DNA from: Isoetes taiwanensis
Lineage: Eukaryota > Streptophyta > Lycopodiopsida > Isoetales > Isoetaceae
DNA length: 64,000 nucleotides
Assembly: GCA_021234155.1 (NCBI GenBank)
Contig: JAJEKV010000025.1
Span: 16,485,094-16,549,093 of the forward strand
Reading direction: 5' to 3'
The position numbers and the translations under genes are program-made. The notes under the pieces are model-generated. The model made no database searches. It was not told the origin of the DNA and worked only from the letters and a program-made list of their open reading frames with translations. Positions 3,650 through 58,976 of the stretch are shown in pieces; position 1 is the first letter of the stretch, and each line of letters opens with the position of its first letter.

Positions 3650-4655
3650 ATCAAGGTCATTATGAGTTCCTTGTTATGCCGTTTGGTCTCACCAATGCAT
3701 CGGCTACGTTCATGAGGTTAATGAACCGAGTATTTGCTGATTATTTGGATAAATCAGTTGAAGTATTTCTAGATGACATACTTGTTTACTCAAACTCATT
3801 GAAAGAACACTTTCAACATCTAGAGCAAGTGCTTAAAGTGTTAGGATCCAATAAGTTGTATGCTAAAATCTCTAAATGTGATTTCCTCAAGCAAAGGATT
3901 GCTTATCTGGGTCACATCTTGTCAGGGGAGGGAGTGTCTCCGGACCCTAGCAAGGTACGAGCGGTACAGGAGTGGACTTAACCTGAGAACATTCATGAGT
4001 TGAGAAGCTTTCTCGGGTTGGCTACTTATTATAGGAAATTTGTGCCCAAGTTTTCTAAGATGGTAGCCCCGCTCACTGATCTTTTGAGAAAAGATCAAGA
4101 GTATGTGTGGGGTCGAGCTTAGCAAGAGGCCTTTGAAAGAATTAAAAGCCTTTTAGTGAGTAGTCCAGTACTGAAGGTACCCGACCTCAATGAGTCATTT
4201 GAAGTATATACGGATGCTTGTGGGCAAGCTCTAGGACTGTGCTTATGCAACAAGGTCGTGTTATTGCATATGAAAGTCGTAAGCTTAATCAAGCGGAATG
4301 AAATTATGCAATGTATGAGCAGGAACTATTGGCTATCGTTTATGCATTAAAGACGTGGCGGCACTACTTGAGATATGGTACCAATAAAGAGCCACGCAAG
4401 TTTGTGGTTTATACTGACCATAAGCCTTTAAGGTTTTTGTAAAGCCAAGCGGAGATTAGTCCTAGGCAATCTAGGTGGCTTGACTTTTTGCATGAGTTTC
4501 ATTTTAGAGCATACTCCTGGAAAGAACAATCCGGTGGCGGATGCCTTATCCAGGATTAAACATTTAAATACTTTAATGGTAGGGGAGAGTGATCTCTTCC
4601 AAAGGATTAAAAACGCATATCAAGAAGATGAGAAACAGCCCGCGGTAACCAAATC
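3650..4655 (+). pseudogene. Ty3/gypsy reverse transcriptase-RNase H, 5'-truncated
   Basis: This is the second half of a gypsy pol, beginning inside the RT. Visible in order are HYEFLVMPFGLTNA, the catalytic FLDDILVYS, LGHILSGEGV, then LRSFLGLATYYRKFV and the RNase H start (VYTDACGQALG). The catalytic DD is intact. In-frame stops lie near 3980 and 4120, frameshifts occur after about 4240, and a further stop is near 4440. RNase H motifs continue in other frames (YEQELLAIVYALKTWRHYL, then HTPGKNNPVADALSRI). The upstream RT, protease and gag are absent. The right end runs into an insertion at about 4656. The chromovirus lineage is inferred from the downstream chromodomain. Confidence 0.88.
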
Positions 4656-5735
4656 TGGGGATTGGTGGACTGAGCAAGATCGCATCGATCCGAGACATCG
4701 GATCGCCATTCTAGAATGGGACGAGCATGCATGTCTTGCATGCATGCGGGCGGCGCATGCCCGTTTTGGTTGGGAGTTCGCTATTTCAGGCGCGTTTCTG
4801 CATCCACGTCTCATCGGCGCTTCCTTTTCTCTCAGCAGTACCTTATTCTCTTTGAATTGTTTCCAGGCAGGGGAGGGGCTTCTTCCTGCCTGGTTTAGAC
4901 AATTTGGCGTTTCTTTCATGCTATCCTTTTCCGGTCTTTGGCCTTCGTCCTGTGACCTTCGTCCTCGATCCTAGTTTGTAAGGAAGTTCTCTGGTAGTCG
5001 GGCGGTTTGTTGGTTTCTTGCGAGTCCCATTCTAGAATCGCATCGATCCGAGACATCGGATCACCATTCTAGAATGGGACGAGCATGCATGTCTTGCATG
5101 CATGCGGGCGGCGCATGCCCGTTTTGGTTGGGAGTTCGCTATTTCAGGCGCGTTTCTGCATCCACGTCTCATCGGCGCTTCATTTTCTCTCAGCAGTACC
5201 TTATTCTCTTTGAACCCTCCCTCCCCCCCTTCTTTGTTTATTGTATTGTGCTCAATTTTCTGTTTATCATGTTTTTCCACCCGCTGGGTGATGCTTTTTT
5301 CCACCCGCTGGGTGATGCTATTCTCTGGTATGTTTGTGTTGTCTCGTTTGTTGTGTTGGTGATGTGCAGGTACAGGTTGGCGAGCGGCATCTGTTTCGAC
5401 TTCTCCATGCGGGGGTTTTTGGGAGCGTTTTATATGCCTTACGTTTGTCTAAGCCCCTTGCCGAAGGCTTATCACTAGGGTTTTTCCTTGAAAACCCGAA
5501 AGGGCGGGGTTTTTTAATCCCGGTGATAAGCTTTCGGCAGGTACATCAGCCACTCATCTATTAGCATTGTATTTTTTGGGGTCCAAGTGATATAATTGGA
5601 TTTTCCCTTTATTTTTCGTGGGTAGTTCGCATGTGTGCGGCTACCCACTGTCCACCATTGTAGAAAATCTGCTGAGATGAATGAGAAGCCTATCTATCGG
5701 GCGGTTTGTTGGTTTCTTGCGAGTCCCATTCTAGA
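4656..5735. mobile_element. Insertion in gypsy pol, two partial copies of one unit
   Basis: Sequence foreign to pol separates RNase H from integrase. A block of about 177 bp (4681-4857) is repeated almost exactly at 5039-5215. A second block, cgggcggtttgttggtttct and what follows up to the palindrome ATTCTAGAAT, occurs at about 5000-5036 and 5698-5737. The arrangement is two nested or tandem copies of one unit, the first about 310 bp and the second about 650 bp. The second holds a 21-bp tandem pair (about 5277-5318, with core CACCCGCTGGGTG) and a large hairpin at about 5459-5542 with 17-bp arms (tgccgaaggcttatcac and its near complement). I do not recognise the element class. Confidence 0.55.
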
Positions 5736-7065
5736 ATGGGTCGTACTTTTATAAATCAAGGATTTATGTTCCATTGCATGATAATCTTCGAATTTTGATA
5801 TTGCATGACCATCATGAAACCCCGCAAGCTGGGCATGGGGGTGAGTGGAAGACCTATGAGTTGGTCAAACGCCATTACTATTGGCCAGACATGAAGGAAC
5901 AAGTCCGAGACTTGGTTTCGCATTGTCTGACGTATCAAGCTGTTAAAGTTGACCATGGTCGTACCCCGGGACTATTGCAACCTATACCTATACCTTTGCA
6001 AAGATGGGAGTGTATAAGTATGGACTTCATAGTCTCTTTGCCTAGAACTGTTAGGCAGAGCACTCAAGTGTGGGTGATTGTTGATTGTCTGACTAAGTAC
6101 GCCAAATTGTGGCCTTAAAAGACAATGCTACTGGTCCAGATGTAGCAACTGCATATATGAGATATGTTTTTCCACTTTTTGGTTTGCCTTTGTCTATCAT
6201 AAGTGATCGGGACACCAAATTCACAGGTCATTTTTGGAAGGACCTTATGAAAGGTCTTAAGGTACGATTGAGAATGAGTAGTGGTAACCATCTACAAACG
6301 GATGGCCAAACTGAGAGAATCAACATGATCCTGGAGGATATGTTGAGAAGTTTTGTCCATGAACGTCAAACTCGTTGGGAGGGGTATTTGCCTTACCTAG
6401 AGTTTGCGTATAACAACAGCCATCATACATGAATTAAGATGACTCCCTTTGTTGCTATGATGGGGCGAAATCCTAGAACTTATGCTGGTATACACAAGTA
6501 TCTAAAAACGGATGCCACCGTGAATACGTTGGATGATATGAATGTGATTCTGCTTCAGTGTCGGCAAAATTTGCGAAGGGTGCAAGATCGCACTCAAGTG
6601 TATGCTAATAAGCGTAGACGTGATGTTACCTATGAGGAAGTTGACTATGTGTTCTTAAGGATTGTGTATCCCTCGTCATTATGAATCAACACCCTTAAAC
6701 CACTGGTTAAAGGGCGTGTGCCTAAGTTAACCCCAAGATATGCTGGCCCTTTTAAGATTGTTAAAAGGTAAGGAACCACAGCATATGAGTTGGCATTACC
6801 TCAAGATATTGGGATCCATCCTGTATTTCACGTAAGCCAGCTTAAGCGAGCTATACTAGATACGGACAATGTTGTCAGTCCTGAGAGTATACCGCTGGTG
6901 TTGAGCTCCGCTGTAACACCCGGACGGATTCTAGATACTCGTGTTCGGCAGTTGCGCAATAGAGATATTCGTGAATATCTGGTCTTGTGGCAAGGCCAGT
7001 CTCCGGCGGATGCCACTTGGGAGACGGATGAGTTTGTGCCATGTTTTCCTCATTTGAAACTCTAG
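5736..7065 (+). pseudogene. Gypsy integrase with chromodomain, decayed
   Basis: This is the C-terminal half of a gypsy pol. It begins with the integrase zinc-binding region (H-x-DNLRILILHDHHE, GHGG, YYWPDM, HCLTYQ); the second cysteine of the usual C-x2-C pair is tyrosine. The catalytic core follows with MDFIVSLP, VIVDCLTKYAK, then a stop at 6116 and a shifted frame with SDRDTKF, TDGQTERIN and YLEFAYNNS. A stop at 6430-6432 and more frame breaks come next. YELALPQDIGIHPVFHVSQL and a chromodomain-like tail (YLVLWQGQSPADATWE) end at 7065. The tail places it among the chromoviruses (Tekay/Del-like). It is inactive. Confidence 0.88.
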
Positions 7066-10367: not shown

Positions 10368-10828
10368 CTGCACGAAGTTTAATCTAATATTGAAGACCAA
10401 AATCAGAGAGCTTACTAAAATAATTACTAAAATAAGACGAATCTGTTTAGAAGCCCCTTGCTATAAACGATCGGAAGCAGCCCGATTTGAGAGTAGGAGC
10501 CGTTGTAGAAGATGTGGACTCTTAAATATGCAATCATTCAAGAACATATGGCACAGCTGGCGCCAGGATGTGGCGTAACTGTCTCCAGGCGAATTCTAAC
10601 AGCAAAAAACTGCCACAAAGATTCGGCAATTCGGCAATGTGGCAAGAAGAGCTCGAGCATGGCTGCCATAGCCCGATCAGATCAAGCTGGAGCGACCGCC
10701 ACATGTTTGAAGGGATTGTCCAAAAGAAAAACGTGGCAACAAAAGAGAAACTAGGATTGCGGCGCAGAACCATGAAAATAGAAAAAAAGAAAAAAGAAAA
10801 ATTTCAAACACAATTACATATGTGTTGA
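10368..10828. other. Intergenic between ROP pseudogene and ankyrin gene
   Basis: No coding homology is seen. I looked here on the minus strand for the missing ROP N-terminal exons (P-loop, FPTDYVPT) and did not find them. Short open frames on both strands look random. Confidence 0.5.
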
Positions 10829-13096
10829 TAATTGTGAGGCCTAGAATGCCTCGAACAAGATGTTCATTGATTGCTAGATGTTCCTTACTCCTTGATTGCT
10901 TGAGAGCAAACAATTGGCAGGGAATCAGATCTTGCTCGACTATTGTGCAAGGATCATGAAAATTTGATAATGAATAGTCGGAAGAAGAACCATCCACATG
11001 AAAGGAGGCAAATGATTCCCCCTATCAAGGTTGTGACTATCACGTTTGTGCGTTGCTTGAGTCCAGAAGGTAAAACTGTAAATCCAGCTGCTGCAAATGC
11101 GCCTAAAACGAAAAAGATTGAGATTGCAAACAAAAAAGCAGTGTGAAATAAGTGGCGTTTAATGATGGAAACGACTTCAGGAATATAAAGCTCAGGTGTT
11201 GGTAGGACAGTACCAGCCCCTATAAGCACGGTTGCAATTGAGAAGAAGAAAGAAAGGCTATTGAAGCTCCAAAAGATACGTACTCCTATGTGTGTACGGT
11301 AATTCTGGCTTATGTTACCAAGTGGTGGTTGTAGCCACCCTGCGAACGTGACACTAGCAATCAATGCTGCACCTACCAAGATCGCATTTGCAGCGTCAAC
11401 ATATACTTGGCGATCTTGATATAATCCTTCTAGCCAAGACCTCATAAGTTTTGTTTCCTGATATTGGCATGATCCCATAATGCATACTGCAATGTTAATT
11501 TTTTTTCATCTTCCACACTCGGTAAGATGTATTCTGAAAACTCTTCTTTCTTACACAAAGTAGACACAACCTGATTTTGCTTTAATATTAATGCCCAATG
11601 CAAAGAAGTCCTCCCCCTTTAATCTCGTCCTTTTGATTCACTGCATCCTTGTTATACATTTGCATCATGAGTGCAATGCTTTCTTCTCCAATGGACAAGG
11701 CTATCCATAGGGAAGGCATATATCTTGGGTGAGGTATTAAAGATAAGTCAACCACATCCATTGTAACTTTAGCATGATTAGCATGGCGCCAATTTTCCAT
11801 CCATTGCGAAGATGACAAACTAGGATCTATAAGTTGTATAAGTGTTTTTGCAAATGGGAGTTGTTGATGAACTAGAGCATGGGTCAAAGGTGTCACCCCT
11901 TCCATATCTTCAAGTTGCAGATCCGCCTTAATCCTTGCAAGAGTTTGTATAATGGTTTGTCCAGTTGGAATGTTTCCTGTCTGAGCAGCCCAATGCAATG
12001 GGGTTCTACCACATCTATCCCTGATGCTCAGCAAACTTGCAATCCTGGCCACAACCCACTCAATGTGTGTTTCTTTTATTCGATGGTCTTCTTTAATCCT
12101 GGCCACAACCCACTCAATGTCTTCTTCTCTTCCATAACCAGCCACGTAATGGAGAAGTTTGCCATTCTTGATCAGGTTTGTTATTTCATTTTTACCACAG
12201 TTGGTACCCAAACTATTTAAACTATCCGAATCAAGGCTCGTACGATCCATATCGTCCAAGATCCTGCAAATGGATTGAACAGTAGGTTCTCGTTTAAATT
12301 CATCTACCAAATCGAGTGGAGATTTTCCTTCAAGATTCAAGGCACATATATCTGCCCCCTTTTTCATAAGAATTCTGATCACTTCAGTGTGCCCATTTTT
12401 TATAGCCAAATGCAAAGGTCCATTACCCGACCCATCAGTAGCTTCAATATATGCCCCTTTCATCAACAACCATTCTACGGCATCCAGGTGGCCATTCCGG
12501 GAAGCATAGTGCAATGCAGTGAGTCCATTCTCGCTTCTTAAATCCACACCACTACTGTTTCTTGCATCATCACCATTATCATCAAAATTCAGATCAACAA
12601 ATAACTTTTCCATCATATCCTTATTCCCATTTCTAGCCGCATAATGAAAAGGTACTGCACCCATTGCATTGCGGACATCCTTACGGGCATGTAAACTTAA
12701 AAGGAAATCCACGGCTTTTGATTGATTATTACCAGCAGCAAGATGCAAAGGGGTCATTTTTTTGAGATTTTGCATGTTCACAACATCCACACCATCTGGT
12801 AAGAGATTCTGCAATTTGATAAGCGTGGATATGCTACCACCGAATGCAGCTTGGTGGAGAGCGGTATTCCCCTCAGGATCCTTCTCCAAAATTTGTTGGG
12901 AAGGAAGGTCAAAACTCAGGAGGTAATCGACAATTTTTTCTTGGTCGAACTGGGCTGCCAGGTGCAATTTAAATTTTCCATCTGCAACCGACCTTACTTC
13001 ACGAGTTGCTGAACTAGGCGGATCCCTTGCTTTGGATAAAGCTTCTAATCCTGCTATATTTATATCGTCTGTATGGCTTATGGTCTCCATAAACAA
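10829..13096 (-). pseudogene. Ankyrin-repeat PGG-domain membrane protein, frameshifted
   Basis: This belongs to the plant ankyrin-PGG (ACD6-like) family of membrane proteins linked to defence and stress. From ATG at 13094-13096 the frame runs 502 codons. Ankyrin motifs sit near residues 43, 76, 114, 147, 190, 224, 257, 362 and 399 (for example GLTALHYASRNGHLDAVEWLL and GRTPLHWAAQTGNI). Coding then continues in another frame (RTSLHWALILKQNQ) after a change in the G-run near 11615. A second one-base shift near 11450 leads into the PGG domain (10954-11478: DAANAILVGAALIASVTFAGW and further hydrophobic segments). Two small exons could in theory avoid the shifts, but no splice signals fit well, so I call it a damaged gene. 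The 3' end was copied to 3193-3649. Confidence 0.8.
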
Positions 13097-14134: not shown

Positions 14135-14945
14135 TATGCTCAAGTGGGCTCAAACATGCCACCTAGGCTCCAACATGCTCTCTCTCTCTCCCTCCCTCCC
14201 TCTCTCTATGTCTCCTAAACCTGCGCCTCGCGAGGGTCCAGGAAATATCTTTTGGTTCTGATACCAATGCAACTGAGCACTTTTTTATAAACATCATGCA
14301 CATTCGAAGCCCATGATCTTTTACAGCGCAAAAAGTGAGAACTCACTGGCGTGACCAGCCATGCCATCTTTTAGTGCGTTTTCTTGCACCCAACATGCCT
14401 AGGCTCCAACATGCCAAGGTAGCTCAAGCATGCCACCTAGGCACCAACATGTCACCTAGGCTCAAACATGCCAAGGTGGTTCAAACATGCCACGCGGGCT
14501 CCTACATGCCACCTATAGGCTCCAACATGCCACATGGGCTCCAACATGCGACCTAGGTTCCAACATGCCAACGTGCCTCAAACATGCCACCTAGGCTTCA
14601 ACATGACACCTAGGCTCAAACATGCCAAGGTGGCTCAAACATGCCACGTGGGCTTCATGACACCTAGGCTCCAACATATCAAGGTGGCTGAAACATGCCA
14701 TGTGGGCTCCAACATGCCACCTAGGCTCCAACCTGCCAAGGTGGCTCAAGCATGCCGCCTAGGCACCAACATGCCACCAAGGCTCAAACATGCCAAGGTG
14801 GCTCAAACATGCCATGCGGGCTCCAACATTCCACCTAGGCTGCAACATGCCAAGGTGACTCATACATGCCACGTGGGCTCCCAACATGCCACCTAGGCTC
14901 CAACATGCCAAGATGGCTCATACATGCCACGTGGGCTCCCAACCT
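14135..14945 (+). repeat. Minisatellite array 1, 19-bp unit
   Basis: This is a tandem array of a roughly 19-bp unit with consensus CATGCCACCTAGGCTCCAA. Variable centres alternate among cacctaggct, caaggtggct and cacgtgggct. Three unit types form a higher-order repeat of about 57 bp. Because 57 is a multiple of three, long open frames run through it and encode a 19-residue repeat (HAKVAQTCHLGSNMPPRLQ). A short CT-rich run (ctctctctccctccctcc) lies near its left end at about 14178-14206. I do not regard the frames as genes. Confidence 0.85.
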
Positions 14946-15334
14946 TTCCTCGGTCACTCCGGTTAGTCGGCTCCCCACCCGACCGGTTGGTTTCGTTGGT
15001 CGGTCTGGTTGGTCGGCTAGTCGGTTGGTTCCCTGTGAAGGCACCTCAGTTTTGGTCACCTCCATTTGGTTTCGGCTGGGCACTTAATAGAAAATCCACT
15101 TAAGATCCCAACTTGGGTTGGTCATGACTGGTCGGTTCCCCTTCCCTCGGTCCCTTCGGTTAGTCGGCTCCCCACCCGACTGGTTGGTTCCGTTGGTCGT
15201 TTTGGCTGGCTCCACCAGTTTGGTCACCTCTGGTTTCTTGGCTCGGTCATCCCGGTGACTGACTCAAGTTCCTCCTTGGGTTGTGCCCGACTGGTTGGCT
15301 CCTTCCTTCGGCACGGTTGGTTGGCTCGGGTCTG
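14946..15334 (+). repeat. Spacer with duplicated GGTCGGTT-rich block
   Basis: Between the two minisatellite arrays lies G/T-rich sequence with two copies of a roughly 50-bp block (tcggttagtcggctccccac...) at about 14950-15005 and 15157-15210, plus many short ggttggt words. It looks like an older, more decayed tandem repeat. Confidence 0.6.
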
Positions 15335-15655
15335 TTGGCTCCAACATGCCAAGGTGGCTCAAACATACCACCTAGGCTCCAATATGCCAGCTAGGCTCAA
15401 ACATGCCAAGGTGTATCAAATATGCCACGCAGGCTCCAACATGCCAAGGTGGCTCAAACATGCCATGCAGGCTCCTACATGCCACCTAGGCTCCAACATG
15501 CCAAAGTGGCTCAAACATGCCACGCGGGCTCCTACATGCCACCTAGGGTCCAACATGCCAAGGTGGCTCAAACATGCCACCTAGGCTCAAACATGCCAAG
15601 GTGGCTCAAACATGCCACGCGGGCTCCAACATGCCACCTAGGCTCCAGAGTTGCA
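15335..15655 (+). repeat. Minisatellite array 2, same 19-bp unit
   Basis: This is a second block of the same 19-bp unit as 14135-14945, with the same three-type higher-order order (caaggtggct, cacgcgggct, cacctaggct). It ends near 15650 at 'ggctccagag'. Confidence 0.85.
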
Positions 15656-24320: not shown

Positions 24321-25330
24321 CATGAAGGTTGCCGGGGCATTGGATAAGCCAAAGGGCATTACTATAACTCATAGTGCCCATACCGCGTTCTGAAGGTGGT
24401 TTTATGGATATCTTCTTCCTTGATTCTTATTTGATGGTAGCCCGACCTTAGGTCAATCTTGGAGAAGACTTTTGCTCCCTGGAGCTGATCCATCAAGTCA
24501 TCCGCCCTTGGCAGAGCATACTTATTCTTTATCGTTTGCTTGTTAAGCTGACGATAATCGATGCACATCCTTAGACTTCCGTCCTTCTTCTTGACGAAAA
24601 GGATGGGTGCTCCAAAGGGAGACACGCTTGCTCTTATGAATCCCAGCTCAAGCAGTTCTTGCAACTGCTTCTTGAGCTCTACCAGCTCTGGAGTGCTCAT
24701 CCTATAGGGTGCCTTGCTGGTAGGCTTAGCATCTAGGGCTAATGTGATTTCACACTCTACACCCCTATAAGGTGGTAGCTGACGGATTTCATCCGTGAAT
24801 ACATCATGAAACTCCTTAATGAGCCTTGCTATCGGCCTAGGCAACTGGTTTCCACTTGGCTCACTTCCCTTGGCTTTACTTGGGTCAACTGCCTCTAGCC
24901 TCAAGATGTAATCCACCCTATTTCTTATTATGCTTTTCCTCAACTGCTTCATAGAGATACATTGCATAACTGAAGTTACTTGCTTACCTTTTACTATGAA
25001 TCGATTGTCGTCCGGCGCCGTCATGGAGATTTCGTTGCGGTCACAATCTATCATAGCTTTAGCTGGCCTTAGGAATTCTATTCCTACTATGAGGTCATAT
25101 CTCCCAATTTGTCCATCACTTCGGCACCCATCGGCCACTTACTTCCACTAAGGTCTATGTCAAAGCTGATTATCCTCCCCTTAGTGTGGCGAATGGCGCC
25201 ACTTGCCATGCTAACTGGCCTTGGCGTGGACTTCAAAATCTTGTTCTTCATGAGGGCAGCAAGCCTTGGAGAGGCAAAGTTATGGGAACTACCTGTGTCT
25301 ATCATGACTACGTACGGCTTGCTATCTATG
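24320..25330 (-). pseudogene. Gypsy protease and reverse transcriptase, truncated
   Basis: This is the aspartic protease and the front half of the RT of a chromovirus. The protease shows MIDTGSSHNFAS at the right end and [16 protein letters not shown] near its end. The RT shows [59 protein letters not shown] and [13 protein letters not shown]. The frame changes once between protease and linker (about 25100). A two-base loss breaks the frame just after RYGHYE at about 24362, and homology ends near 24320 after PATFMH, before the catalytic DD box. It is incomplete and inactive. Confidence 0.88.
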
Positions 25331-26440
25331 ATTCCTTCTGCTGAGATTATTGTGGATTGGTTCTTAACATCCCCTGACTCAATAGCTGCGCAAATTTTAC
25401 ACTCACCTTCTATGAAGTCTTGGGCTTCCTGTTGGCTACCTCATTCTTCATCTCCCTCGGCTGGTGATTCCAGTCGGCGAGTTCAGCTAGAGCCGCCTGC
25501 ATGACAAAGGGACAATTGTGTGTTCTATGCCCTGGCTGGAAGCATCGAAAACGCAGTTTCTTCTCTATACATTCCTGCCTTTTCTCCTTTGGGATACTGT
25601 CTAGGAGGAACTTAATTGACTTGCCCGCCGATCCCTCTTGTGGCTTACGGTCTCCAAAGGACCTCCCTTGAGCCTTACCTTGGTACTGGCCCCCTGCTGG
25701 CGTATTGCCTGCCTAGGTTGATACTGCCCTGTTGTCTTCCCTTTGAATGGTAACTGTTTCTGCCCTGGAGTTACTGGTGCCTCCTCCAAACTCAAAGCCT
25801 TATCAGCCTCCCCAACTGTACTTGGGTTGATTGCCCGAACCAACCTCTTGATGTTGCTATTCAGCCCTTCAATGTATCCATCCATTGCTTGTCTTTCCGT
25901 GATCCTAGGAACATTGAGTCTCAGCCTGATGAATTCTTCGATATACTTGGCTACGGACAAGTTGCCCTGATCCAATCTGTAAAATAGATGTATCTGCCTG
26001 CTGGTATGGGATCTTGGCACGTAATGTTTACGGAATGCCCTTTCCACCACATTCTAGCTGGCCCTATTAGGTTTGTTGTTGCCACTTTGCTTATGTCCCT
26101 GTCCTTCATTCCGTAAGAGTTTCCACGAACTCCTCCTGCCTCTTCTTTTCCTCTTCCTTTCCCTGTCGGGCGCCTGATTTTCTTCTCTTTCCGGCTGAGG
26201 TGCTTCGTCAATACCTCCCACAGGTAGTGGAGGTGGTGGCGGCGGTCCGTACTCTTGAGCGTGCATGAGTGGTGTTGCCCACTGGAGTAGTTCCCGCAGC
26301 TGATTCCCCATTTGTGCCAACCTTGCATTCACTGCTTCGACTGTCATGCCTTGTTCGTCATCGTGTTCCCGGCCGAACAAATTCCTAGGTTGCCACTGGT
26401 GCTGCCGGCCTTGGCCTTGAGACCCTGAACCGGTGTTCCT
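25331..26440 (-). pseudogene. Gypsy gag, frameshifted
   Basis: This is the capsid gene of the same chromovirus. The N-terminal part (to about 26054) has a proline run and a basic stretch (RERKRKRRGRR). The capsid motif YGMKDRDISKVATTNLIG-x-ARMWW reads in a second frame near 26060-26150. A third stretch at 25601-26050 has RKHYVPRSHTSRQIHLFYRLDQG and MDGYIEGLN. At least two frameshifts separate these parts. The left end of gag (25331-25600) is degraded; a zinc-knuckle-like segment is only suggested. The sequence just above 26437 on the minus strand (ccaatacttgcag) looks like a splice acceptor. Confidence 0.85.
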
Positions 26441-26645
26441 GGCTGCAAGTATTGGTCATCAATGTTGTTACTTAGGTTATACATTATTCAACCTTATTTA
26501 CAAGTCAATTATTGTTAGGCATAAAAGAAATCATGTCAAAATTCCAACTTATAAGTTAAAGACAAATTATGGCAATTAATATATGGGAGTTATTCATTAC
26601 ATAAGATATATGATAGTACATAGAACTGAAGACATTTTTATACAT
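26441..26645 (-). other. AT-rich gap between unknown ORF and gypsy gag, intron-like
   Basis: About 200 bp of AT-rich sequence lies between two GC-richer coding stretches on the same strand. On the minus strand it ends with ccaatacttgcag, which fits a 3' splice site. No clear donor is evident at the right side, so an intron is a suggestion only. Confidence 0.3.
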
Positions 26646-28151
26646 TTAGAAGATAAGTGAAAGCAGAAAGTGCCCCTTCATTGATTTGAAGAAGTTCTTG
26701 ACGTCCCTAAGTCGAAGGCCTTTGCCGACATTGCGCAAGATATTCCTGGAAGATCCGCCTTCGAGGGCTCGAGTCATTTGAGATGGGGGAAGTGGTGGTG
26801 CTACCGCCGCTACAACCATTAGTGGAGCGTCCCTTAAGTGACCCCTGGCAAAGTCGAGGTTGTAGAGTACCACGGATCTCTTGAAAAGAATAATGTGATC
26901 CGTGTGGCTGCTTAGCTCGGCATGCTGTCCAAACCCAGAAAGCGCTATGAGGAGCGCCAAAGCTTCTTCTCCTCGTGGGTTGAACTCCTTATGAAAAACT
27001 ATCATTTGTCCTTGGCTAAGGACTGACAGATAGTAACGGAGTGCCTTGCCCTTCCCTATGGTCTGGGTGCCCGTGCCCTTCCTTTGAGACGCTCTGCCAT
27101 AGACGTTGAATGCTAGAAGGTCTCTCCACATTGTTGTTGCGCTATCCAGGTTGATGCTGCTGGACCCCTCGCGCCTACTTCTGGATCTGATGGCTCGGCT
27201 GGTGCTTGGCCCTCTCCCAGGTTTCTACAGCCTGGATTGGATCTCCTGAAATTCTTCTTCTGGGATGATTGGCTGCTGCCGACGATACATTTCCCTAATG
27301 TGCTCGTAGGCTGCAACATCCGACATTGTCTCCCCGGCATAGGAATGCCTTTCTGCTACCTCCCTTGGGACTTCTTGATAGGAGTAGTCGACGAAGTCGC
27401 TCTGTTGCTCCTTAGCAATTAGGCCTAGGAGCTCGTCGATTCGAAGCCCCTCTTATAGACAATATGGAAGATTGAGGATGTCGTTGGCGAGGATGTATTC
27501 TTTCCCTTCGATGACTATCGGCAATAGCGCCGTGATGCCGATAGGTGGTTCATTGGCCCGCCTGATGTCGTCATCATGCCTTGCTATCTGCCTCTCCATT
27601 TTGGCTGCTTCCCTTCTCTCCCAATCTGGGTCTTCCTCCCCAGCCTGCTCGTAATCCTGCTCGATCTGCAATGTAGCCGTGCTTGTGCCGTAGTACTCAT
27701 ACTTCGAAGACTCGATTTCCTGTATTTGGGCTTGCCCCTCCTTGTGTTGAGTGGTGCTAAATCCAAAGGTTGGACTGATCGCCTTGTGCTGCATGAATAG
27801 AGCGAGGGCTGCATGTGATGAGATATATCTATGCCTATGGGGCTCTACAGGTCATGCAGTTGGGCATGTCTCTTGTCCTATCCCACAGTTGGTTCTTGCC
27901 CCTGGATCCCCCCCTAAAGCTTGGCTAAGGGAATCTAGGGATACCCACTTCCCTCCCCTAAGCGGCAGACTAACTTCCCAGGGTAAGATCTGCTGGTCAT
28001 ATTGACAGATTATGTCGGTGTAGAAAGGGGTCCTGGTCAAGGTTGCGTGGAGATCAAAGACATGGTCAAATACATGGAAGGCATCTTCAGCAGAAAAATC
28101 ATGGATATGGTTGGCACTGTCGTACCACCGAACAAAGTTGGTAGGCGCCAT
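26646..28151 (-). pseudogene. Retroelement-associated ORF of unknown function, about 500 codons
   Basis: One minus-strand frame runs 501 codons from ATG at 28149-28151 to a stop at 26646, interrupted only by three in-frame stops (27852-27854, 27453-27455, 27225-27227). The product begins MAPTNFVRWYDSANHIHDF. It has an acidic, Glu/Gln-rich central region (EQDYEQAGEEDPDWERREAA), a predicted helical part (EEEFQEIQSRL) and a C-terminal globular-looking part (VLSQGQMIVFHKEFNP; LFKRSVVLYNLDFA). I see no protease, RT, nucleic-acid-binding or zinc motifs. It follows the histone-like ORF on the same strand and lies inside the same LTR element as far as can be judged, so it may be that element's extra or structural protein. 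Confidence 0.6.
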
Positions 28152-29164
28152 TGAGCAGAGATGGGTGTAAAATATGGTTTGGAAGAACTAAGGAGAGCCT
28201 GAGAAATCACCTAAGATGGTGAGAGCAATCTAGGTGAAGGGAAAATGGCAAATGAAGCCCCTTTTTATAGACTAGGGTTGCCTCGGGTTCCGTGCACAAG
28301 GGTTCTTGATCGAAGAGACCTTTGTTCTAAGGCTATAGATCTCCAAACAAGGTACTATGAAGTGCAAATTTAAGCAAAACAAGGCAAGAAAGGCTACATG
28401 GCAGTTTGTTGGGTCAAATTTGGCCAATCCAGGTCAAAATGGGTCAACCCGGGTGGGTTCGCGCAGATGGCCTCTGCGTCCGCGAACGCAGACGCGTTTG
28501 GCGCGGACCCGCCCGGTTTGGGTGATTTCTATGAAAATTGAACTTTTTTAGGGGTTGTAAGATGCTAACATACCTATTTGGATCAATTATAACCTAGCTA
28601 GCAACTTATCTCATGCTAAATGGACATCTAGAAGTTCTATTTCAAGGCAACCGAGTGGGTTCGCGTGGATGGCCTCTGCATTCGCGACGTTTGGCGCGGA
28701 CCCGCCCGGTTTGGCTGATTTTTGCTACTTTTGGGTGTTTTTGGCCAAAATAAAATGCTAGACTAGGTAAGCAAATTCTAAGCATCCTACTATGTTTTTG
28801 CACAAAATTTGGGTCAATTTTGGCCAAGATCCTGGCACCCGGGTGGGTTCGCGCGGATGGCTTCTACGTCCGCGAACGCGGACGCGTTTGGCGTGGACCC
28901 GCCCAGTTTGGCCATTTTTGAGCAAATTTGACTAATTTTTGCGCTAAAACTTATGCTACTTTATCAATTACAAGTATTCTAAGCATAATACAAAAGATTA
29001 TACTACAATCTAACTTATTTTAAGACATTTTCATACCAAAATACAATCAAATTACAGAGAGAAGAAAACGTATATATATATATGCCAAAAAGGTCAATTA
29101 TACAAGGAAAACTTTGATACTTAAGTTAATTACAAAATTAGGGGGGGGAGGGGGGGGGAGGTCT
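28152..29164 (-). repeat. Inter-ORF region with three GC-rich palindromic blocks
   Basis: Between the unknown ORF and the histone-like ORF, a block of about 65-75 bp occurs three times (about 28446-28520, 28650-28714, 28830-28912). Each begins gggtgggttcgcgcngatgg, contains gtccgcgaacgcngacgcg and ends gcggacccgcccggtttgg. Each block has internal complementarity. The spacers are AT-rich. A (TA)n run lies at about 29071-29082 and a G-run near 29141-29160. No coding sequence is seen. Confidence 0.65.
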
Positions 29165-30320
29165 TCAAGGCTTCTCCTTGCGAATCCTCCTCGCAAGGTG
29201 CAGGTCTTTGGGCATGACCGTCATCCGCTTGGCATGGATTGCGCAGAGATTTCCCTCCTCGAAGAGCTGTACAAGCTCCCCCTCTGCCGCCTCCTGTAGG
29301 GCCCGGACTATCAGGGGCGGGGTGTCACCCTATAGTCGGTTCGGAACTCTTGCATTATTTTTCGAAGGAGTCGCTCGAACGGCGCCTTCCGGATCAGGAG
29401 ATTAGTGCACTGCTGGAAGTGCCTATTCTCCCGAAAGACTCGGGCATGCTTCAAATTGGGCCCATGATGGACCCTCTTCGGTGGCTCCGGTCTTGCGGGT
29501 GGCAGCTTTGGCTGATTCTTGGGCCGCCCACCCTTAACGTCCTTCTGTACGTTTTGTTGGCAATACCAATCGTTGTACCTCCTCCAGTGGCGAAGGTACT
29601 CCTGGTATGCCCTTTTTTGACGCTGGAATTCGCGATCCTGCTTCAACGCAAATTCCTGCTCGCCCACCTTTTGCATCTTAACTACCTTGGGTGGCTTATG
29701 CCACTTTGGGTAGGGTGGGCGGGCATTGGGGTCCGAAGGCTCCCCAGCGTCGTGCTCGGGCTCCTCTTCCTGCCCGGCTTCCTCCTCTACTTCCTCTTCT
29801 TCCTCGTCTTCCTCCTCCACTTCCTCGTCGGGAGATCGACGAGGTTCTTCAATCCAGACCGTCCCCCTTGGGCGGTCCTGGTCCCTTTTGGACCTCTTCT
29901 CCCTTCTTCACGCTTCTTTCTCCCTCTCCCTCTTCTTCCTTGCTGCCTTCTCCTCTGGCCACTCTGCCACCTTCTCCTTCCCCTTCTTCTTTTTGGAGGT
30001 GCCAACCTCCTCCTGGCGTGGCTGCTGCTACTGCTGCTCTTGTTGCTGCTGCTGGTGCTGCTCTTGTTCTTGGTCCTCCTCCTGGTCGGACAGAGTACCG
30101 AAGTGGAGGGTCTCGTCGTATGCTGCCTCTCGATAGAGAAGCTACTTTGTGCCTCCTCCTGAGAGGCATGGAACGTCTCATCCGTCGAACTGGACGATTC
30201 TTCCTCCTGCCCCGGCCGAAGGTGCTCGAGGATCTGCTTCCCTGGAGCTCCAGCCGCTGCCGCCATCGAAGGGGTCTGCCTTGGGCTGTATTTCCTCGCG
30301 GTGCACTTGGTCCTCGCCAT
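29165..30320 (-). pseudogene. Histone H3/CENH3-like ORF carried by an LTR retroelement
   Basis: The ORF starts at ATG 30318-30320 with MARTKCTARK, the H3 tail start with K4 and K9 kept. A long insert follows, Ser-, Gln-, Lys/Arg- and Glu-rich and then Pro-rich. The histone fold ends at a TGA at 29165-29167. The fold shows alpha-N (RENRHFQQCTNLLIRKAPFE), alpha-1 ([15 protein letters not shown]), alpha-2 ([20 protein letters not shown]) and alpha-3 ([20 protein letters not shown]). Full length would be about 384 residues, against about 136 for H3. RHFQ-x2-TNLLI, QEAAE and a loop 1 two residues longer than H3 resemble plant CENH3; MPKD is H3-like. Lesions are a frame change near 30130-30160, TAG at 30028-30030, TGA at 29908-29910 and a lost C near 29315. 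It lies about 550 bp downstream of a primer site and LTR. Confidence 0.85.
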
Positions 30321-30870
30321 ATCTTACGGTTAATCAAACTGATGAGCTGATCAAGAGAGAGGAGCGTTTAGGCAAGGTTAGGGGGAAAATGAGGTGGCAA
30401 AAAGATATTTAAACGGGAAGATGCTCTAGGGAATATTCTCCTACCATTAATAGCCCTATTAATTAGCCCTCCTTATTAATTAACCCAGTATACCCATTTA
30501 TTAGTATATGGTTAATGCTGTATTATACTATAATTTCGAATTTTTTCCTAATGGTTTGAAGTGTTAATTATGAATTTGAGCCATTTTTCACCCAGGTCTC
30601 GGATTGGCATGATTCTTCGACCTATTTTGGGTGAAATCTGATGCTGATGCATAATTCTCATTCCAATTTTACTAGAATGTTAATTTGACTCATTCTTTTT
30701 CTCCCATCTAACAACTTAGCCTATTCTTACGGACCCACTACCTAGGAGAAAAAAATTTCTCCTATTTCCGAGGTTCCATGGTGGAAATTTTCATTTCACA
30801 CCCTATTAGGCCTGTTAGACTACTTGTTAGGGACATGGTCAGTGCTAGTTCCTGGTCAACCAAGAACATC
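30321..30870 (-). other. Retroelement leader between PBS and histone-like ORF
   Basis: About 550 bp of untranslated-looking sequence lies between the primer binding site and the ATG of the histone-like ORF. It is AT-rich near 30425-30560 and has no ORF of note. This length is usual for plant LTR-element leaders. Confidence 0.55.
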
Positions 30871-30882
30871 GCTCTGATACCA
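30871..30882 (-). promoter_or_regulatory. Primer binding site for initiator Met-tRNA
   Basis: On the minus strand TGGTATCAGAGC starts one base after the LTR end. This is an exact match to the complement of the 3' end of plant initiator Met-tRNA, where reverse transcription is primed. It fixes the orientation of the element and shows that the histone-like ORF is the first ORF after the 5' LTR. Confidence 0.9.
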
Positions 30883-30883
30883 T

Positions 30884-32275
30884 TGTGACGCTCCCTACAA
30901 AATATACGGCACCCGGCCGTACACCCCGTAGGAAATCCCCCATCCGGTCCTTCGACCGCACGGGCCCTCCGTCTATCCCACACTCTGGGATCACCTTAGT
31001 GCGGGAAGGGGACACGAAGGTGTCTTGCGCGCCCTTCCCCTATGGGCTCCTATCACAGCGGAAGCATAAACAACGTCAGAACTAGCAATAACAATACATC
31101 ACACTACCTCGAAGGGTAGCACATCCACATATCCATAACTACATCAGAGATAAACATATACCGTAAAACATGAGGAGCTCCTACCCAAGGCTCAGACTCT
31201 TGGGGCAAGTAGACTGACGGCTAGGTCTCAAGATAGACCGAGTCATAACAATGGCAGGGCTAGCTATAGACAATGGCTAGGGTTGACCACTCCATCCTCC
31301 CCTCTTGTGCACACTTTGCAGATGGGCTAGATCAGGCTCTGGCATGACTCTAGCCTTCCGGATACGCAATCCCATGGTATCACCCATCGGGACTACTCCA
31401 GGTTGCATCTCCCTGGTCCGTCGAGGTAGGAAGGGTTGCATCTCCCCTTCCAGGGTCTAGAGGTTCCTCGGGCGGCTAGAGAATCGTGGCGACACACGAT
31501 TCATCCCCGACTTACCCCCCAAAACAAGAGTCAGGCCAACACTTGCAACTCTTGAGAGGCAGGGCAACACCATTGCCCCAGGATGTGTCGGACCCATGCC
31601 CGCCCCACACGAAGTGACCGGCCATAAGCCTAGCCCGCTATGGGGTCCCCAGTAAACATCTAACCTAATCATACATATCTAACTTATAGTTAGGGTTCCT
31701 TGATTAAGGTTCAAGATGTTGAATAAAGGTTCCAGGATGGCTCTACTCTAGATACAACATACTGACCCATCTGGAGTGCTAACTTCCAGATGAACTACTA
31801 TGGACGCTACTCCAAATACCTGCTCCCGAAGCACTCCCTCCCATTCCTGGCGTCTCCATGCTCCTCGAAGTGGTCGAAACCGTGCTCACTCCAAGATCGT
31901 GCACACACTCTAGGGGCTGCTGCACTAGGCTATGCCACAGCAAACGGCGCTCGAAACGGGGTTTCGAGTGCGAAGAAGGTTCCCAGGGTGATAGGGCTAG
32001 GAAAAGAGGCCTAGGGTTAGGGTTCAGTTTAATATAGATTAGGGTCCACATGGGATGAGACGTGGCACCAATGGGATATGGCCATGTGGCGGTTGCCCAA
32101 TAGGATAAGGCCATGTGGAACATGGGTCTTATCTTAAGGTTATCTAAGTTACATACATAACTTAGATATGCACCCATGGCACTTCCTAAGGTATACAAGG
32201 CTACAACGTAGACTTGTATAGTGATGGACCCGGAAATATACATATTTATAGCGTATATTTCCCTGGAACGTCACA
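30884..32275 (-). mobile_element. 5' LTR of the histone-carrying retroelement (1392 bp)
   Basis: The plus strand begins TGTGACGCTCCCT and ends GGAACGTCACA, so the LTR has TGTGACG/CGTCACA inverted ends. It belongs to the same family as the solo LTR at 53690-55392, sharing gggccctccgtctat, ccactccatcc, aagtgaccggccataagcct-like and other blocks. In its own sense (minus) a TATA box (TATAAATA) lies about 30 bp from the left LTR end. The primer binding site lies directly beside its inner end. No 3' LTR of this element is visible in the window. Confidence 0.85.
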
Positions 32276-45419: not shown

Positions 45420-46090
45420 GAGTTGTATTTTGAGGATTTGCTTTGGACTCTGCTTCTGCTACTATCCTTGGATTGATTGCTCAGATAAGTTTTTTGATTC
45501 CATCGTTAAGTCCTTCGATGTAACCTTCCACGACATGTCGGTCACTTAGGTTCGGCACATAGAGCCTTAGCCTCGTAAAATCTTCGGTGTATTTCTGCAC
45601 TGACTCATTACCTTGTTCCAACCTATAAAACTGTTGCATCATGTGACACTTATGTTCCCTGGGCACATAATGACGTTCAAATGTCTTCGCAAACTTTTTG
45701 AATTTGCAGCTGTCTCTGCTTAACCCGTATGCTTTGGCATAACCTTTCCACCATATTCTAGCAACTCCCAAGAGGTTTGTTTTGGCCACTCTGCCTTTGT
45801 CCTTATCTCTCATTCCGTAGGCATTGTCATACTCTCTCATTTCATCAAGCCATGCCATGGCTTCCATCCCCGATCTATTGTTGCCCAAAAATTGCCCAAG
45901 TTTCCGAGCCTTCCACACATTGCTTAGGGCTGAGTCCATTTTCTTTTGATAGCCGTCTCCTCTCCCTGGTCTGTCCTTGTTCTAACCTCCCTGGCGGTCG
46001 TGTTGAACTTCCACTTCCTCCTCCGATTCTGAATCAGAGTTAGAGCTCTTCCCCTTATCCTTGGCCTGAGTTGGTGCCTGAGGCAATTGG
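45420..46090 (-). pseudogene. Gypsy gag fragment
   Basis: This is a capsid gene fragment of a chromovirus-type retroelement related to, but distinct from, that at 25.3-26.4 kb. It has an acidic Ser/Glu stretch (SDSESEEEVEV), one in-frame stop near 45984, then AMAWLDEM, YGMRDKDKGRVAKTNLLG, ARIWWKGYA, FERHYVPREHK, FYRLEQGNESVQKYTEDF and VEGYIEGLNDGIKKLI. A further stop lies at 45481-45483, after which homology continues briefly (AINPRIVAEAESK). No protease or pol follows and no LTR is recognisable nearby. Confidence 0.82.
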
Positions 46091-50757: not shown

Positions 50758-52731
<1,974 letters not shown>

Positions 52732-53094
52732 TCAACATGCAACACAACTATTTTCTGGGGTTTTGATCTCCATCATAACCCAAAGACCAGAAACCTTCAC
52801 AAAGGTAAACTCGACATGGACCTTTTGCCGGATTGGTGCGTTCATAGCCCACTCGAAAAGCTCGGGCTCCACTCGAATGCCCATCTCCATATACTGCACC
52901 AAAGCTTGTGCAGTTATAAAATTATGAGTTTTCCTGTGATTTAGCACAGTTAACTCATTCTCTTCGACAGTGCATGAAGAATTCACACTGCCCTGAGACA
53001 TGTTTTCTGAGTCTGTAGAAGAGGAGGATGGCGATGGTGAAGGATGGCGCCGGAATCTAAAGCGCTCACGAACTACAACCTTCGGTCTGGCCAT
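52732..53094 (-). CDS. Hypothetical exon, Ser-rich N terminus
   Basis: A minus-strand frame from ATG 53092-53094 begins MARPKVVVRERFRFRRH, followed by a Ser/Pro run and then RKTHNFITAQALVQYMEMGI and FEWAMNAPIRQKVHVEF. A possible donor follows TTTGTGAAG near 52806. The amphipathic, non-repetitive sequence looks like a real first exon. I do not recognise the family, and no certain following exon was found. Confidence 0.4.
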   Translation of the reverse strand: MARPKVVVRERFRFRRHPSPSPSSSSTDSENMSQGSVNSSCTVEENELTVLNHRKTHNFITAQALVQYMEMGIRVEPELFEWAMNAPIRQKVHVEFTFVKVSGLWVMMEIKTPENSCVAC

Positions 53095-53411
53095 CTCTAC
53101 AGGAAACGTAGAATAGGAAAAGAAAAAGCTGGCACACAAATCGATGTCATAATTTATGGGAGTCTGCTGATGGTACAGGAAATAATGGCTTCGAATGACA
53201 TCTAAGGTGTAAGACTACTGCCATGAAATCTAATGGTCTTGAAATCTAATGGTTTTATGCCCAATTCTGCACTCTGACTGGTCCTGAAGTTGCTGGCAAC
53301 TTTCTATGTCAGACTACAAATTTCTGCCATAAACTGTTATAGAATAGAATGCTGCAAATCCAATGGGATTTGCAGGAAAAAGACACTACACAATATCACA
53401 CAATAAAAAAC

Positions 53412-53689
53412 AAGTTGCTGCTTCATGTGTATCCTGGTGCTTGGCCGCTCTTGCGGCAGCAAGCCTTGCATCTGTGCGTGGCTTGGTTGGTGTGGCTGAT
53501 TTGGAAGCGGCGGCGGTTGTGGATCTTTCAGGGGATTCAGGAGCCTGCAGCCTCTCTGATTCCTCGACTCAGGTACAAGCTATTTCAAAGCTTTCTGGTG
53601 TTCCCGGGAGTAGTAGAGCGGAAGTTTGCCATTTGGCGGGACTTCTTGGGTGTTGTAGATGGTGATGGTTGTGACGCTCCCTGAATATA
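53412..53689 (+). pseudogene. LINE ORF2 C-terminal fragment, left of solo LTR
   Basis: The plus-strand frame contains LRQQALHLCVAWLVWLIWKRRRLWIFQ, which recalls the C-terminal zf-RVT region of plant LINE (non-LTR) ORF2 proteins. It is cut at 53689 by a solo LTR and resumes at 55393. The 5' part of the LINE is missing, as is usual for truncated insertions. The left boundary is approximate. Confidence 0.6.
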
Positions 53690-55392
53690 TACGACACCCA
53701 GCCGTATACATACAGGGACTTTCCCCTCCCATGGCAACCAACTTGCCATGAGCAGGGCCCTCCGTCTATTTCGGGCCATCTATGAAATGATGCCCTAAAG
53801 AAGGACACTGAAAAGGTCATTCGCCCACGCCTTCAATGGGACTCCTACGTCGAAGCATGAATACAAGGGTTAGCACACAAAGATAAATCATATATAAATA
53901 ACCACCACGAAGGGTGGTGCATCCATCCAAATACCAACGGCATAGAATATGCATCTAAACCTAAGAAAACACCCAAACCCCGGTTCTACCCCCGCCTCGG
54001 ACTCCGGTGAGGATCGACCGACGGCCCGGGCCTCAAGAGATCAGCGAGGCGAAGTCTTGGCATGGCGTTGGCTGGCATAGAACATTGGCTAGGGTTGTCC
54101 ACTCCATCCGCCCCTCCCCCTGCTCACTTTGCGGATGGGTCAATTCACGCTATGGCTTCGCTATAGCCTTCCCTGAGACGCAGGTTCAAGGTATCACCCT
54201 TTGAGCCTACTCTGTGTTCATGACGCTGGGTCCGATGAGGCAGAGCCGGGGAAGCGTCCCCTTCGAGAATCCACAGTGGTTCCATGGGTGAGCTAGAGAA
54301 TACGTGCGCATCAGCGACCCCGCATCCGTGCAGACTTTACTCACCCTAAATCTACTCAAAGTGCAAGGTGCTCCATACGGATCACACCTCTACACCCAGG
54401 GAGTGTCAGACCCATACCCGGCCCTCTACGTGACCGGCTATCAGGCCTAGCCCACTGTAGGAGTCTCAGGAGCCTTGTATGCTCGTGCAAGACCCCACCC
54501 CTCATGTCACCACTGTGTTCCTTGTCTGGTGCTAAGCCCGACCATAGCATCTAGGACCCGTGGGCTCTTGTGCACAGCCGCAATATTGGGAATTACAGGG
54601 TTTTATCTAGGAACATACTAACGTATATGAGTTCAGAGGTCTCTACCCCGCCCTTATTTCCCCCATTTCCAGAGTGATACCATACAAAGAACTATCAATC
54701 CATCCTTTTTAGGAACCAAACCAGAATCAGAATATAAAGAGAACTTACCTTTACAATCAAGGGTTAGTTCCTACCATTAAAACACAGAGAGAACAGACAG
54801 AACATCACAACAAGTGCCCAACAGGCGCTACCTAGAATTCACAACTAAACTACTACCAACCAGGTGTTTGGCCTGACCCGTTATCGTGGGGTGCTTCCAT
54901 AGTGTTTGTCTGAAGGGGGCGGCAAATGACTAGAGGGGTCAAGTTTAGTGATTTTGGTGAGGTTAGCAACAGTCCTTGGGCGCCAAATGCTCCTTGGGCC
55001 AAAGCATAATCCTTGGGCGCCAAATTTGCTCCTTGGGCCAGAAGAATTCCTTGGGCACTCACCGCTCCCTTAGGCCCTCCTCCTCTCCTCCATCTCCAGC
55101 TGCTCCTAATTCGAATTGGGGCACAAAAGCCCTAATTTGGGTGTCCAAAATGGAAACCATGCCTTGCCCAATCGATTTGGGCCAAGTGGCACCCCCTTGT
55201 TGGTGCTAATTAACTAATTTAGCTTAATTAGGGTAATTAGGCTATATACTTTATAATTATCCACAATGGATTTATTAACATAGCTAAATAAAACCATTGT
55301 GGTCGATGCCCACTTAGCCAATTACCCCCTTATGTCCTAGTGACGTGTCCCGGCGTGCATACGTATACCGTATGAATGCCTGGAACGTCACA
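53690..55392 (-). mobile_element. Solo LTR (1703 bp), same family as 30884-32275
   Basis: The plus strand begins TGTGACGCTCCCTGAA and ends GGAACGTCACA. It is flanked by the 5-bp target duplication ATGGT at 53685-53689 and 55393-55397. It shares many blocks with the 5' LTR of the histone-carrying element, and orientation is assigned by that match. No primer binding site is present beside it, so the internal part has been lost, most likely by LTR-LTR recombination. Internally, two ccttgggc-containing words recur at 54975-55060. Confidence 0.88.
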
Positions 55393-57760: not shown

Positions 57761-58958
57761 TTACCCCAAAGTTCCCATTTGGAGCCACCTCCGTTCTTTG
57801 GCATTAGCCTTTGCCCGTTCCTCATCTTGAAAGCTTACACCTTTCTTCCGCTCATCAGCAGCTGTAGAGATCTCAGGTATATCCTCCGGTTTGGGACCTT
57901 CAATAGCATGCATTTGTACACCCCTTTGAGGTTTAGGTGTCTCAACCTTTGTGATCCCCCCTTCTCCAAACGGACAATCCCTTAGGTAATGTTTTCCCCC
58001 GCATCTATAACAACCTCCCTTTGGTTCCTTAGTTTCCTTCCACGGTCTACCTTGACTTCCCTCTTCTTGCTTCCTTTCGGAACCATTACCATTGCCGTAT
58101 TTCTCCTCTTCTTGAAGTTTTTGGAAGATTCCTTACTTCCGTTCTTCTCTTTGCTACTCTTGTTACTTCTTGATCTAAAGTGTCTTCATCCCAAAAATCA
58201 AATTTCCTAGATTTTGGATCTATTTTCCGTTCCACTGCAGATGCTAGTTTTATAGCTCCATCTAAATCTTTAGGGTGAAATATTTCCATTTCCACATAGA
58301 TATCGTCCCTACATCCGTTGACATATTTTCTCAGAAGCTCCTTCCCATCCAGATTCCTTATTAGTGCCGCTAAATGAGTGAATTTGGAAGTGTGGGACTG
58401 ACTACTCTCAGTTTCCCCCTGTTTCAGACGATCCCATTCCCTACGTAGCTCACTGTGATAGTTAGAAGGTAAATAATGTGCTTCAAATGCCGTTTTGAAA
58501 CTTTCCCAATTATTGATCCTGGGATCACATTCTCGTCTGCCTTGCCACCATGCTTGGGCTTGATCTTTTAAGTAAGTGTCCATGGCTTGCAGTCTTTCCA
58601 CATCTGTTGCCTGCACACGTTCAAAAAACTTTTCCCACTGGCTAACGAAACTGACAACCTTGACAGGCTTTGTCTTTCCCCCTTTGAAAGACGGCATGTC
58701 TGCTTTCTCTAACCATTTTCTCAGTTTAGGTGGCGGTGGAGGAGTTACTGGAGAAGGACCATTGGGCAAAGGAGGTGGTTGCGAAGGTTGCAGATAAATA
58801 TCTGGAAGGAAGCGATACATAATAGACAGCAATTCCACTTGCCTGTCATACTCTTGCTGACTGCTAGGCATAGGCAATGCTAACTGGGATGCAATGTAGC
58901 TGGCATTAGACAAGGCTTGCTGGTATTGTGCTTCAGTAACATTGAAGCGTTGGGCCAT
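57761..58958 (-). pseudogene. Retrotransposon gag with zinc knuckle, one frameshift
   Basis: This is the capsid protein of the LTR element 56532-59822. From ATG 58956-58958 the frame gives MAQRFNVTEAQYQQ, a proline run, the retrotransposon gag core (AQAWWQGRRE, NWESFKTAFEAHYLP, LRREWDRLKQGE, FTHLAALIRNLDG, LLRKYVNGC) and ends at 58086. A -1 frame change near 58120 links it to a CCHC zinc knuckle (CYRCGGKHYLRDCPF, 57968-58015), and the frame stops at 57761. There is no protease, RT or integrase, so the element depended on other elements for movement. The frameshift could be mutation or a programmed shift. Confidence 0.85.
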
Positions 58959-58976
58959 TGATCAGGTATGAGGATC

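Follow-up and report, generated by a model that had tools for sequence, protein, structure and literature searches.

A histone H3 derivative as the first open reading frame of a Ty3/gypsy chromovirus family in Isoetes taiwanensis

Introduction

A hAT DNA transposon of the fungus Pyrenophora tritici-repentis carries a histone H3-like open reading frame (ORF) (PMC3538342), and single H3 genes occur in DNA viruses, as described in a review (PMC9145170). A bracovirus histone H4 is described as joining host nucleosomes and altering expression through its tail (PMC5423620). Plant Ty3/gypsy chromoviruses of type II possess long terminal repeats (LTRs), gag-pol and an integrase chromodomain, and no histone ORF is described for them in the available text of two papers (PMC3350952, PMC6317226). 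Here, we report on an LTR element of Isoetes taiwanensis whose first ORF encodes an H3-like protein, hereafter H3L. It was noticed in a stretch of 64,000 nucleotides (contig JAJEKV010000025.1, positions 16,485,094 to 16,549,093), which is called the window. The window contains a dead, decayed 5' part of a Ty3/gypsy chromovirus copy on the minus strand; in the family to which this copy belongs, the first ORF is a captured and selectively maintained H3 derivative of about 370-390 amino acids.

Like the Pyrenophora hAT, this is a multi-copy mobile element with an H3-like ORF, for which expressed sequence tags are also reported in the fungus. The latter is, however, a fungal DNA transposon and not an LTR element, with 26 very similar, recently expanded copies (PMC3538342), whereas H3L is found at about a thousand diverged places, lies as first ORF behind the primer site and has been under selection over deep divergence. 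Like the DNA viruses, the element is a parasite in whose genome H3 is the only histone encoded; the review on them has no match for retrotranspos-, retrovir- or plant (PMC9145170). The bracovirus protein is likewise a virus-encoded histone, comparable in this to what is proposed below for H3L, but it is an H4 of a wasp polydnavirus and its function has been studied there (PMC5423620). Compared with the type II chromoviruses, the element has H3L and a second region in addition, both located before gag. No retroelement encoding a histone was found in the open-access literature, taken without preprints and most subscription journals; the original prediction, made from the letters of the window, knew of no described plant element with such a layout. 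A transposon with an H3-like gene is already known, though a long-selected histone in a retroelement appears to be new.

Results

H3L is linked to the element throughout the host genome

The original prediction proposed that an LTR element had taken up an H3-family gene. The window alone cannot place the H3-like ORF in the element, because no 3' LTR is present there and the ORF is broken. The host assembly (1,658,258,908 bases, 1110 contigs) was searched, the counts of protein matches being lower bounds. With a 169-residue piece of H3L as query, all 150 scored matches (from 9213 first-look candidates) had E values of at most 4.4e-70, and in 17 of the first 30 match rows the matched part was free of stops. 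A 24-base motif from the non-histone central domain of H3L occurred with at most two mismatches at 474 + 507 = 981 places genome-wide, and the reversed pattern, which served as control, at none. The size of the family is roughly a thousand copies.

The 3' end of this element's LTR was detected on the same strand in 43 of 50 H3L loci, corresponding to 41 of 48 distinct places with the window included; the loci without it were L002, L004, L011, L012, L014, L028 and L034. This test accepts the LTR end wherever it lies in the locus, provided that the strand is the same, and distances were determined only for loci in which the start of H3L was found: among open copies starting at the expected place, the ATG followed the LTR end after 556-585 nt. 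When the reverse transcriptase (RT) of the window was used as an independent query, 147 places were scored from 25702 first-look candidates. RT lay on the same strand downstream of H3L within 20 kb in 25 pairs, as against one upstream, one in opposite orientation and 0.13 expected by chance; in 17 of these 25 (window included; 150 H3L places compared) the distance was 4.6-5.6 kb. In addition, 16 RT places outside the 25 pairs were chosen to avoid bias towards H3L, and 2.1 kb were read at the expected position of H3L, which was encoded wholly or partly in 12 of them, about 5 kb upstream of RT. Furthermore, considering the 100 exact motif places listed, the motif lay upstream within 20 kb of 14 of 34 RT places (contigs up to C960).

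Since the same order and spacing recur at dozens of places in the genome, H3L belongs to the element. A separate H3 pseudogene, or another insertion behind the LTR, might have been suspected from the window, with its missing 3' LTR and broken ORF; it is refuted by this recurrence and by the presence of H3L between paired LTRs with target duplications elsewhere, and is given practically no weight. The uptake of an H3-family gene was thus confirmed, the ORF being a stable part of the family across genome copies; copies without it, or an ORF with boundaries of its own, did not arise as a rule.

Anatomy of further copies

The genome search for further copies, which the original prediction had proposed, yielded H3L between paired LTRs with target-site duplications (TSDs) on C954 and C1095. 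The C954 copy is 13.2 kb long, with LTRs of 1638 and 1640 nt that are 96.9% alike (BLAST; Kimura two-parameter (K2P) distance 0.027), the 5-bp TSD AAACA on both sides and a purine tract before the 3' LTR. Its H3L frame is open (Pfam Histone, 94.3 bits). Its 3' half encodes, in more than one frame, RT (PF00078), RNase H (PF17917), an integrase zinc domain (PF17921) and a chromodomain (PF00385, 42.4 bits for a cut-off of 25.1). At a substitution rate of 1.3e-8 per site per year, the LTR pair would be roughly one million years old. The C1095 copy (L033) has an open H3L of 381 amino acids, the TSD ATGGA, a mutated 3' LTR end and an LTR pair with a K2P distance of 0.144 over about 1.1 kb. A deletion extends from the gag start to the integrase end, and a chromodomain scored by Pfam (29.5 bits) remains; this copy is a non-autonomous derivative in which the histone ORF, the LTRs and the target duplication were kept. 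On C985, the K2P distance over the last 1.03 kb of the two LTRs is 0.063. Three of the four 10-kb copies that were read (L031, L032 and L034) are, by eye, interrupted or flanked by other elements.

The layout of the family is LTR, iMet-type primer site, leader, H3L, second region, gag-pol with integrase chromodomain, polypurine tract and LTR. Paired LTRs with a 5-bp TSD, gag, protease, RT, RNase H and integrase on the element strand and the chromodomain assign it to the Ty3/gypsy chromovirus class. In the chromodomain of the element, judged by eye only, the tryptophan is kept and the first and third cage positions are not aromatic. In type II chromodomains the first and usually the third aromatic cage residue is missing (PMC3350952), and two papers name no known partner for them (PMC3350952, PMC6317226).

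H3L keeps the histone fold and the start of the H3 tail

Open H3L frames with the start in place are 369-389 amino acids long. The fold aligned without gaps to H3 residues 44-135 in all 22 open copies, at 57-65% identity, and Pfam recognized the Histone family (PF00125) in 15 of 15 copies. At the positions which we take to be the contact residues of H3, R63, K64, H113, K115, R116, T118, K122, D123 and R129 were invariant (22/22), R69, R83 and C110 were kept in 21 copies and R49 and R72 in 20. Position 87 is leucine in all 22 copies and position 90 arginine in 21, so that the usual chaperone motif (87-90) is gone; an alpha-2 chaperone motif is named in the review on viral histones (PMC9145170).

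The residues of the N-terminal tail were counted in 18 of the 22 open copies, namely those in which the start is found where expected. As T-K at positions 3-4 partly defined that start, K4 is present in 18/18 by construction. T6, R8 and K9, which are mostly independent of start recognition, were each kept in 17 of 18 copies, and the exact MARTKQTARK was found in 6 of 18; a wider count of the tail start (39 of 48 places) is more circular and was not relied upon. The start of the H3 tail, ARTKxTxRK, is kept. In the alignment, judged by eye, only the first nine residues match and the canonical tail past residue 10 (K14, K18, K23, K27, K36) is not kept; what follows instead is a long charged linker, together with a central domain that is itself conserved.

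Relatives of H3L were looked for among proteins and viral contigs. A query with region 195-379 gave 2726 proteins, in the best 120 of which the central domain (residues 186-300) was unmatched at E<=10; five of these 120 were inspected and were tandem or fused canonical H3s. The central part alone (184-300) gave seven candidates, none at E<=10 (proteins of about 208-663 amino acids), and of the 7988 candidates scored with a profile built from 15 copies, from which the fold had been left out, none reached E<=0.001 (proteins of about 155-490 amino acids). In viral contigs, 48 stretches fitted the pattern and no relative was among them.

H3L is closer to canonical H3 than to CENH3

The original prediction pointed towards the centromeric histone CENH3, on the grounds of a longer loop 1 and of the motifs QEAAE and RHFQ/TNLLI. 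The longer loop proved to be an artefact of the second frameshift of the window copy, near position 29318; in the open copies loop 1 has the length of that of H3, in a gapless alignment. The window fold is identical to canonical H3 at 54-55 of 99 positions, as compared with 44 of 96 for a CENP-A chimera and 43-44 of 99 for two CENH3s. The PDB matches shown for the window fold are H3, and for a profile of 15 copies the best 60 of 176 PDB rows are H3-type entries. The phylogeny of the fold that had been suggested was built as a tree of 29 rows, with H3 from other species and plant CENH3 references. H3L forms a single clade (100/100), and the CENH3 rows make up a separate group, with moderate support (90/77).

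A captured CENH3 that would steer insertion to centromeres is thus highly unlikely. RHFQ-C-TNLLI and ALQEAAE do resemble Arabidopsis CENH3, and the stretch preceding alpha N is unlike that of H3; this resemblance is real but outweighed by the higher identity to H3, the canonical loop 1, the PDB matches and the position of H3L outside the CENH3 group.

H3L is under purifying selection

The ratio of nonsynonymous to synonymous substitutions (dN/dS) was determined for 22 open H3L frames from 47 distinct non-window places, after removal of L001 (the window) and of L031 and L032, which duplicate the places of L016 and L029. This set is not random, as L036-L051 (16 of the 22) and the 10-kb loci had been picked for long open frames; in the tree, the 22 frames are spread over supported clades. 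The median pairwise dN/dS was 0.13 overall, 0.19 for the tail, 0.18 for the linker, 0.11 for the central domain and 0.055 for the histone fold. Since the median dS was about 1.0-1.35, many pairs are near saturation; for the fold, 179 of 231 pairs were used, those with saturated dS or dS <=0.05 being left out. Recomputed in the true frame, the fold gave 0.057 for the 179 pairs and 0.092 when restricted to the 37 pairs of dS <0.8, whereas the off-frame controls gave 2.2 and 2.5; third positions made up 69.5% of the fold differences. Ten of the 11 nearest non-overlapping pairs gave a dN/dS, of 0.05-0.28, with a tendency to higher values in the closest pairs, which would be expected if inserted copies drift. 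At the substitution rate used above, dS among the copies would correspond, as a rough estimate, to tens of millions of years.

The comparison of dN/dS among copies, another check that had been proposed, therefore revealed purifying selection on H3L, strongest in the fold (median about 0.06). From the linkage, the purifying selection, the ungapped fold and the kept contact residues and tail start, it was concluded that selection maintains H3L as part of the element.

LTR elements capture pieces of host genes, as maize Bs1 does, and H3L could have been a passive hitchhiker, an H3 cDNA transduced once and spread with the element without any function. The many broken copies, that of the window included, and the C954 copy without start are what such a passenger would leave. 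Bs1 is likewise an LTR element with captured host coding sequence, but a low-copy patchwork of gene pieces and not the maintained, selected ORF of a large family. A passenger would drift; the fold of H3L shows a dN/dS of 0.055 at a median dS above 1, and the 22 open frames over supported clades have nearly invariant contact residues. Such a functionless passenger is therefore very improbable.

A proposed role of H3L in chromatin

We assign a probability of about 0.75 to the reading in which the element is as described above and H3L has a selected role in chromatin. Several observations weigh against it. The H3L family is known here from genomic sequence alone, all copies come from one genome, and no relative was found outside the host genome, in the protein collection at the lengths given above or in viral contigs. 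Most of the nearest relatives of the window copy are broken, only 4 of the 29 non-window loci with the best scores being accepted by the open-ORF test, and the C954 copy, though young, has lost the H3L start codon. In four of the 16 copies selected through RT (L056, L057, L058 and L063), H3L was missing from the 2.1 kb that were read; it may thus be dispensable to some elements. In the fold itself, position 52 is arginine in 12 and lysine in 10 of the 22 open copies, K56 is replaced by glutamine in 16 and by methionine in 6, and position 79 is valine in 8.

Because the contact residues are kept, H3L would be expected to pair with H4 and to join nucleosomes as a partial mimic of H3. It would show K4 and K9 there, without the rest of the canonical tail or the chaperone motif at 87-90. 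With the K27/K36 region and this motif lost, H3L may take an unusual path into chromatin and may be ill suited as a substrate for the complete cycle of silencing; it may instead compete for readers of K4 and K9. In this way, H3L would shield the element's own chromatin from silencing, or would tether the integration complex to chromatin.

H3L might also act in the particle or on the cDNA, by condensing or packaging it, and not in host chromatin. Medusavirus histones are described as occurring in the virion (PMC9145170), and the long charged linker and a fold that keeps its DNA-contact residues would suit such a use. The kept H3 tail start and H3-H3' contacts suggest a nucleosomal, modification-sensitive use instead, and an action confined to particle or cDNA is considered decidedly unlikely.

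If the protein works, an anti-silencing or decoy function of H3L incorporated in chromatin is the mechanism that we favour, at somewhat less than even odds. A tether to chromatin or to the target, possibly via the chromodomain of the element, is conceivable with lower probability; packaging of the element cDNA is doubtful, and so, to the same degree, is any other mechanism. The integrase chromodomain resembling type II and an H3 derivative with the K4/K9 tail start could also form the two halves of a private chromatin code, with H3L as a partner of the chromodomain; H3L would then mark or occupy the element's own copies or target sites and thereby steer or decoy the chromodomain or the host H3K9 machinery. 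This is a rather unlikely proposal.

A selected H3 derivative as first ORF means that a retrotransposon may act on the chromatin of its host through a core component that it has stolen. The H3L family can, moreover, serve as a natural experiment to learn which portions of H3 (the fold, the dyad contacts or the tail start) are enough for a parasite. It also bears on what plant type II chromodomains bind, a question left by two papers on these elements (PMC3350952, PMC6317226).

Anatomy of the window copy

The features of the window copy are collected in Table 1. The LTR, the primer site and the 550-bp leader of the original prediction were all found as described, the primer site being the sole exact match to TGGTATCAGAGC within the window. 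This sequence is presumably the complement of the initiator Met-tRNA 3' end (iMet-type); with up to two mismatches, 5 matches occurred in the window for a chance mean of 4.25, i.e. without excess. As for the ORF that had been predicted to begin with MARTKCTARK and to end in an H3-type fold, the start and the fold are real, but the frame is not intact. It starts at 30320, 563 nt past the LTR end, contains frameshifts near 30,135 and near 29,318 and in-frame stops at 30028-30030 and 29908-29910, and ends in the H3 fold with a stop codon at 29165-29167. PF00125 was recognized on both pieces of the fold, with E values of 2.6e-07 and 1.1e-14.

Table 1. Coordinates of the parts of the element copy in the window
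Feature	Position	Strand	Remarks
5' LTR, TG...CA, 1392 nt	30884..32275	-	TGTGACGTTCC...GGAGCGTCACA; ends common to the LTRs of complete copies
Primer binding site TGGTATCAGAGC	30871..30882	-	sole exact match in the window
Leader, primer site to H3L ATG, 550 nt	30321..30870	-	
H3-like ORF (H3L), decayed	29165..30320	-	2 frameshifts, 2 in-frame stops
H3L histone fold, counterpart of H3 residues ~44-135	29168..29448	-	PF00125, PDB H3 matches; frameshift near 29318
Conserved region between H3L and gag	26649..28187	-	ORF remnants 27855-28187, 27456-27851, 26649-27224; tblastn matches in L033, L034
gag	25601..26455	-	N-terminal part 26057-26455, capsid part 25601-26050; PF03732 E 3.2e-09, PF19259
Aspartic protease region	25090..25440	-	PF13650 28.2 bits, cut-off 24.3
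Reverse transcriptase start, copy cut off there	24362..25138	-	PF00078 E 3e-12

The conserved region between H3L and gag contained no Pfam family above cut-off; common to copies and partly open, it is possibly a second accessory ORF. The N-terminal part of gag was also matched in L033 and L034 (tblastn). No partner 3' LTR was found in the window by BLAST, and the chromodomain is not present in this truncated copy. A tract rich in C on the element strand lies at 29140-29162, directly 3' of the H3L stop codon, and imperfect repeats with GCGCGGACCCGCCCGG lie at 28416-28931, between H3L and the next ORF remnants.

Other features of the window

A solo LTR with the 5-bp TSD ACCAT lies on the minus strand at 53670-55392. 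It is related to the LTR of the H3L element and has matching ends, 52% of the aligned positions being alike as against 40-43% after shuffling. The ORF at 52735-53214, which was first taken to correspond to H3L behind another LTR, was rejected as such, since this LTR is the solo one with the TSD ACCAT.

Another chromovirus, on the opposite strand, occupies 3460-7062 (+), with RT and integrase-like frames and a chromodomain (PF00385, 36.1 bits). The gag genes of further Ty3 elements are located at 45484-45981 (-) and 58089-58961 (-), and a Copia-type gag (PF14223, E 2.4e-23) at 2026-2922 (-). An ankyrin-repeat gene with a hydrophobic C-terminal part lies at 10957-13096 (-); this hydrophobic part recurs at 3194-3649, which is 89% identical to 10828-11285. 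Tandem repeats of 19 bp form a large two-block array at 14390-15650, direct repeats of more than 200 nt that are 93-97% alike are found at about 55.9-60.1 kb, and a long GA repeat is present at about 51440-51700.

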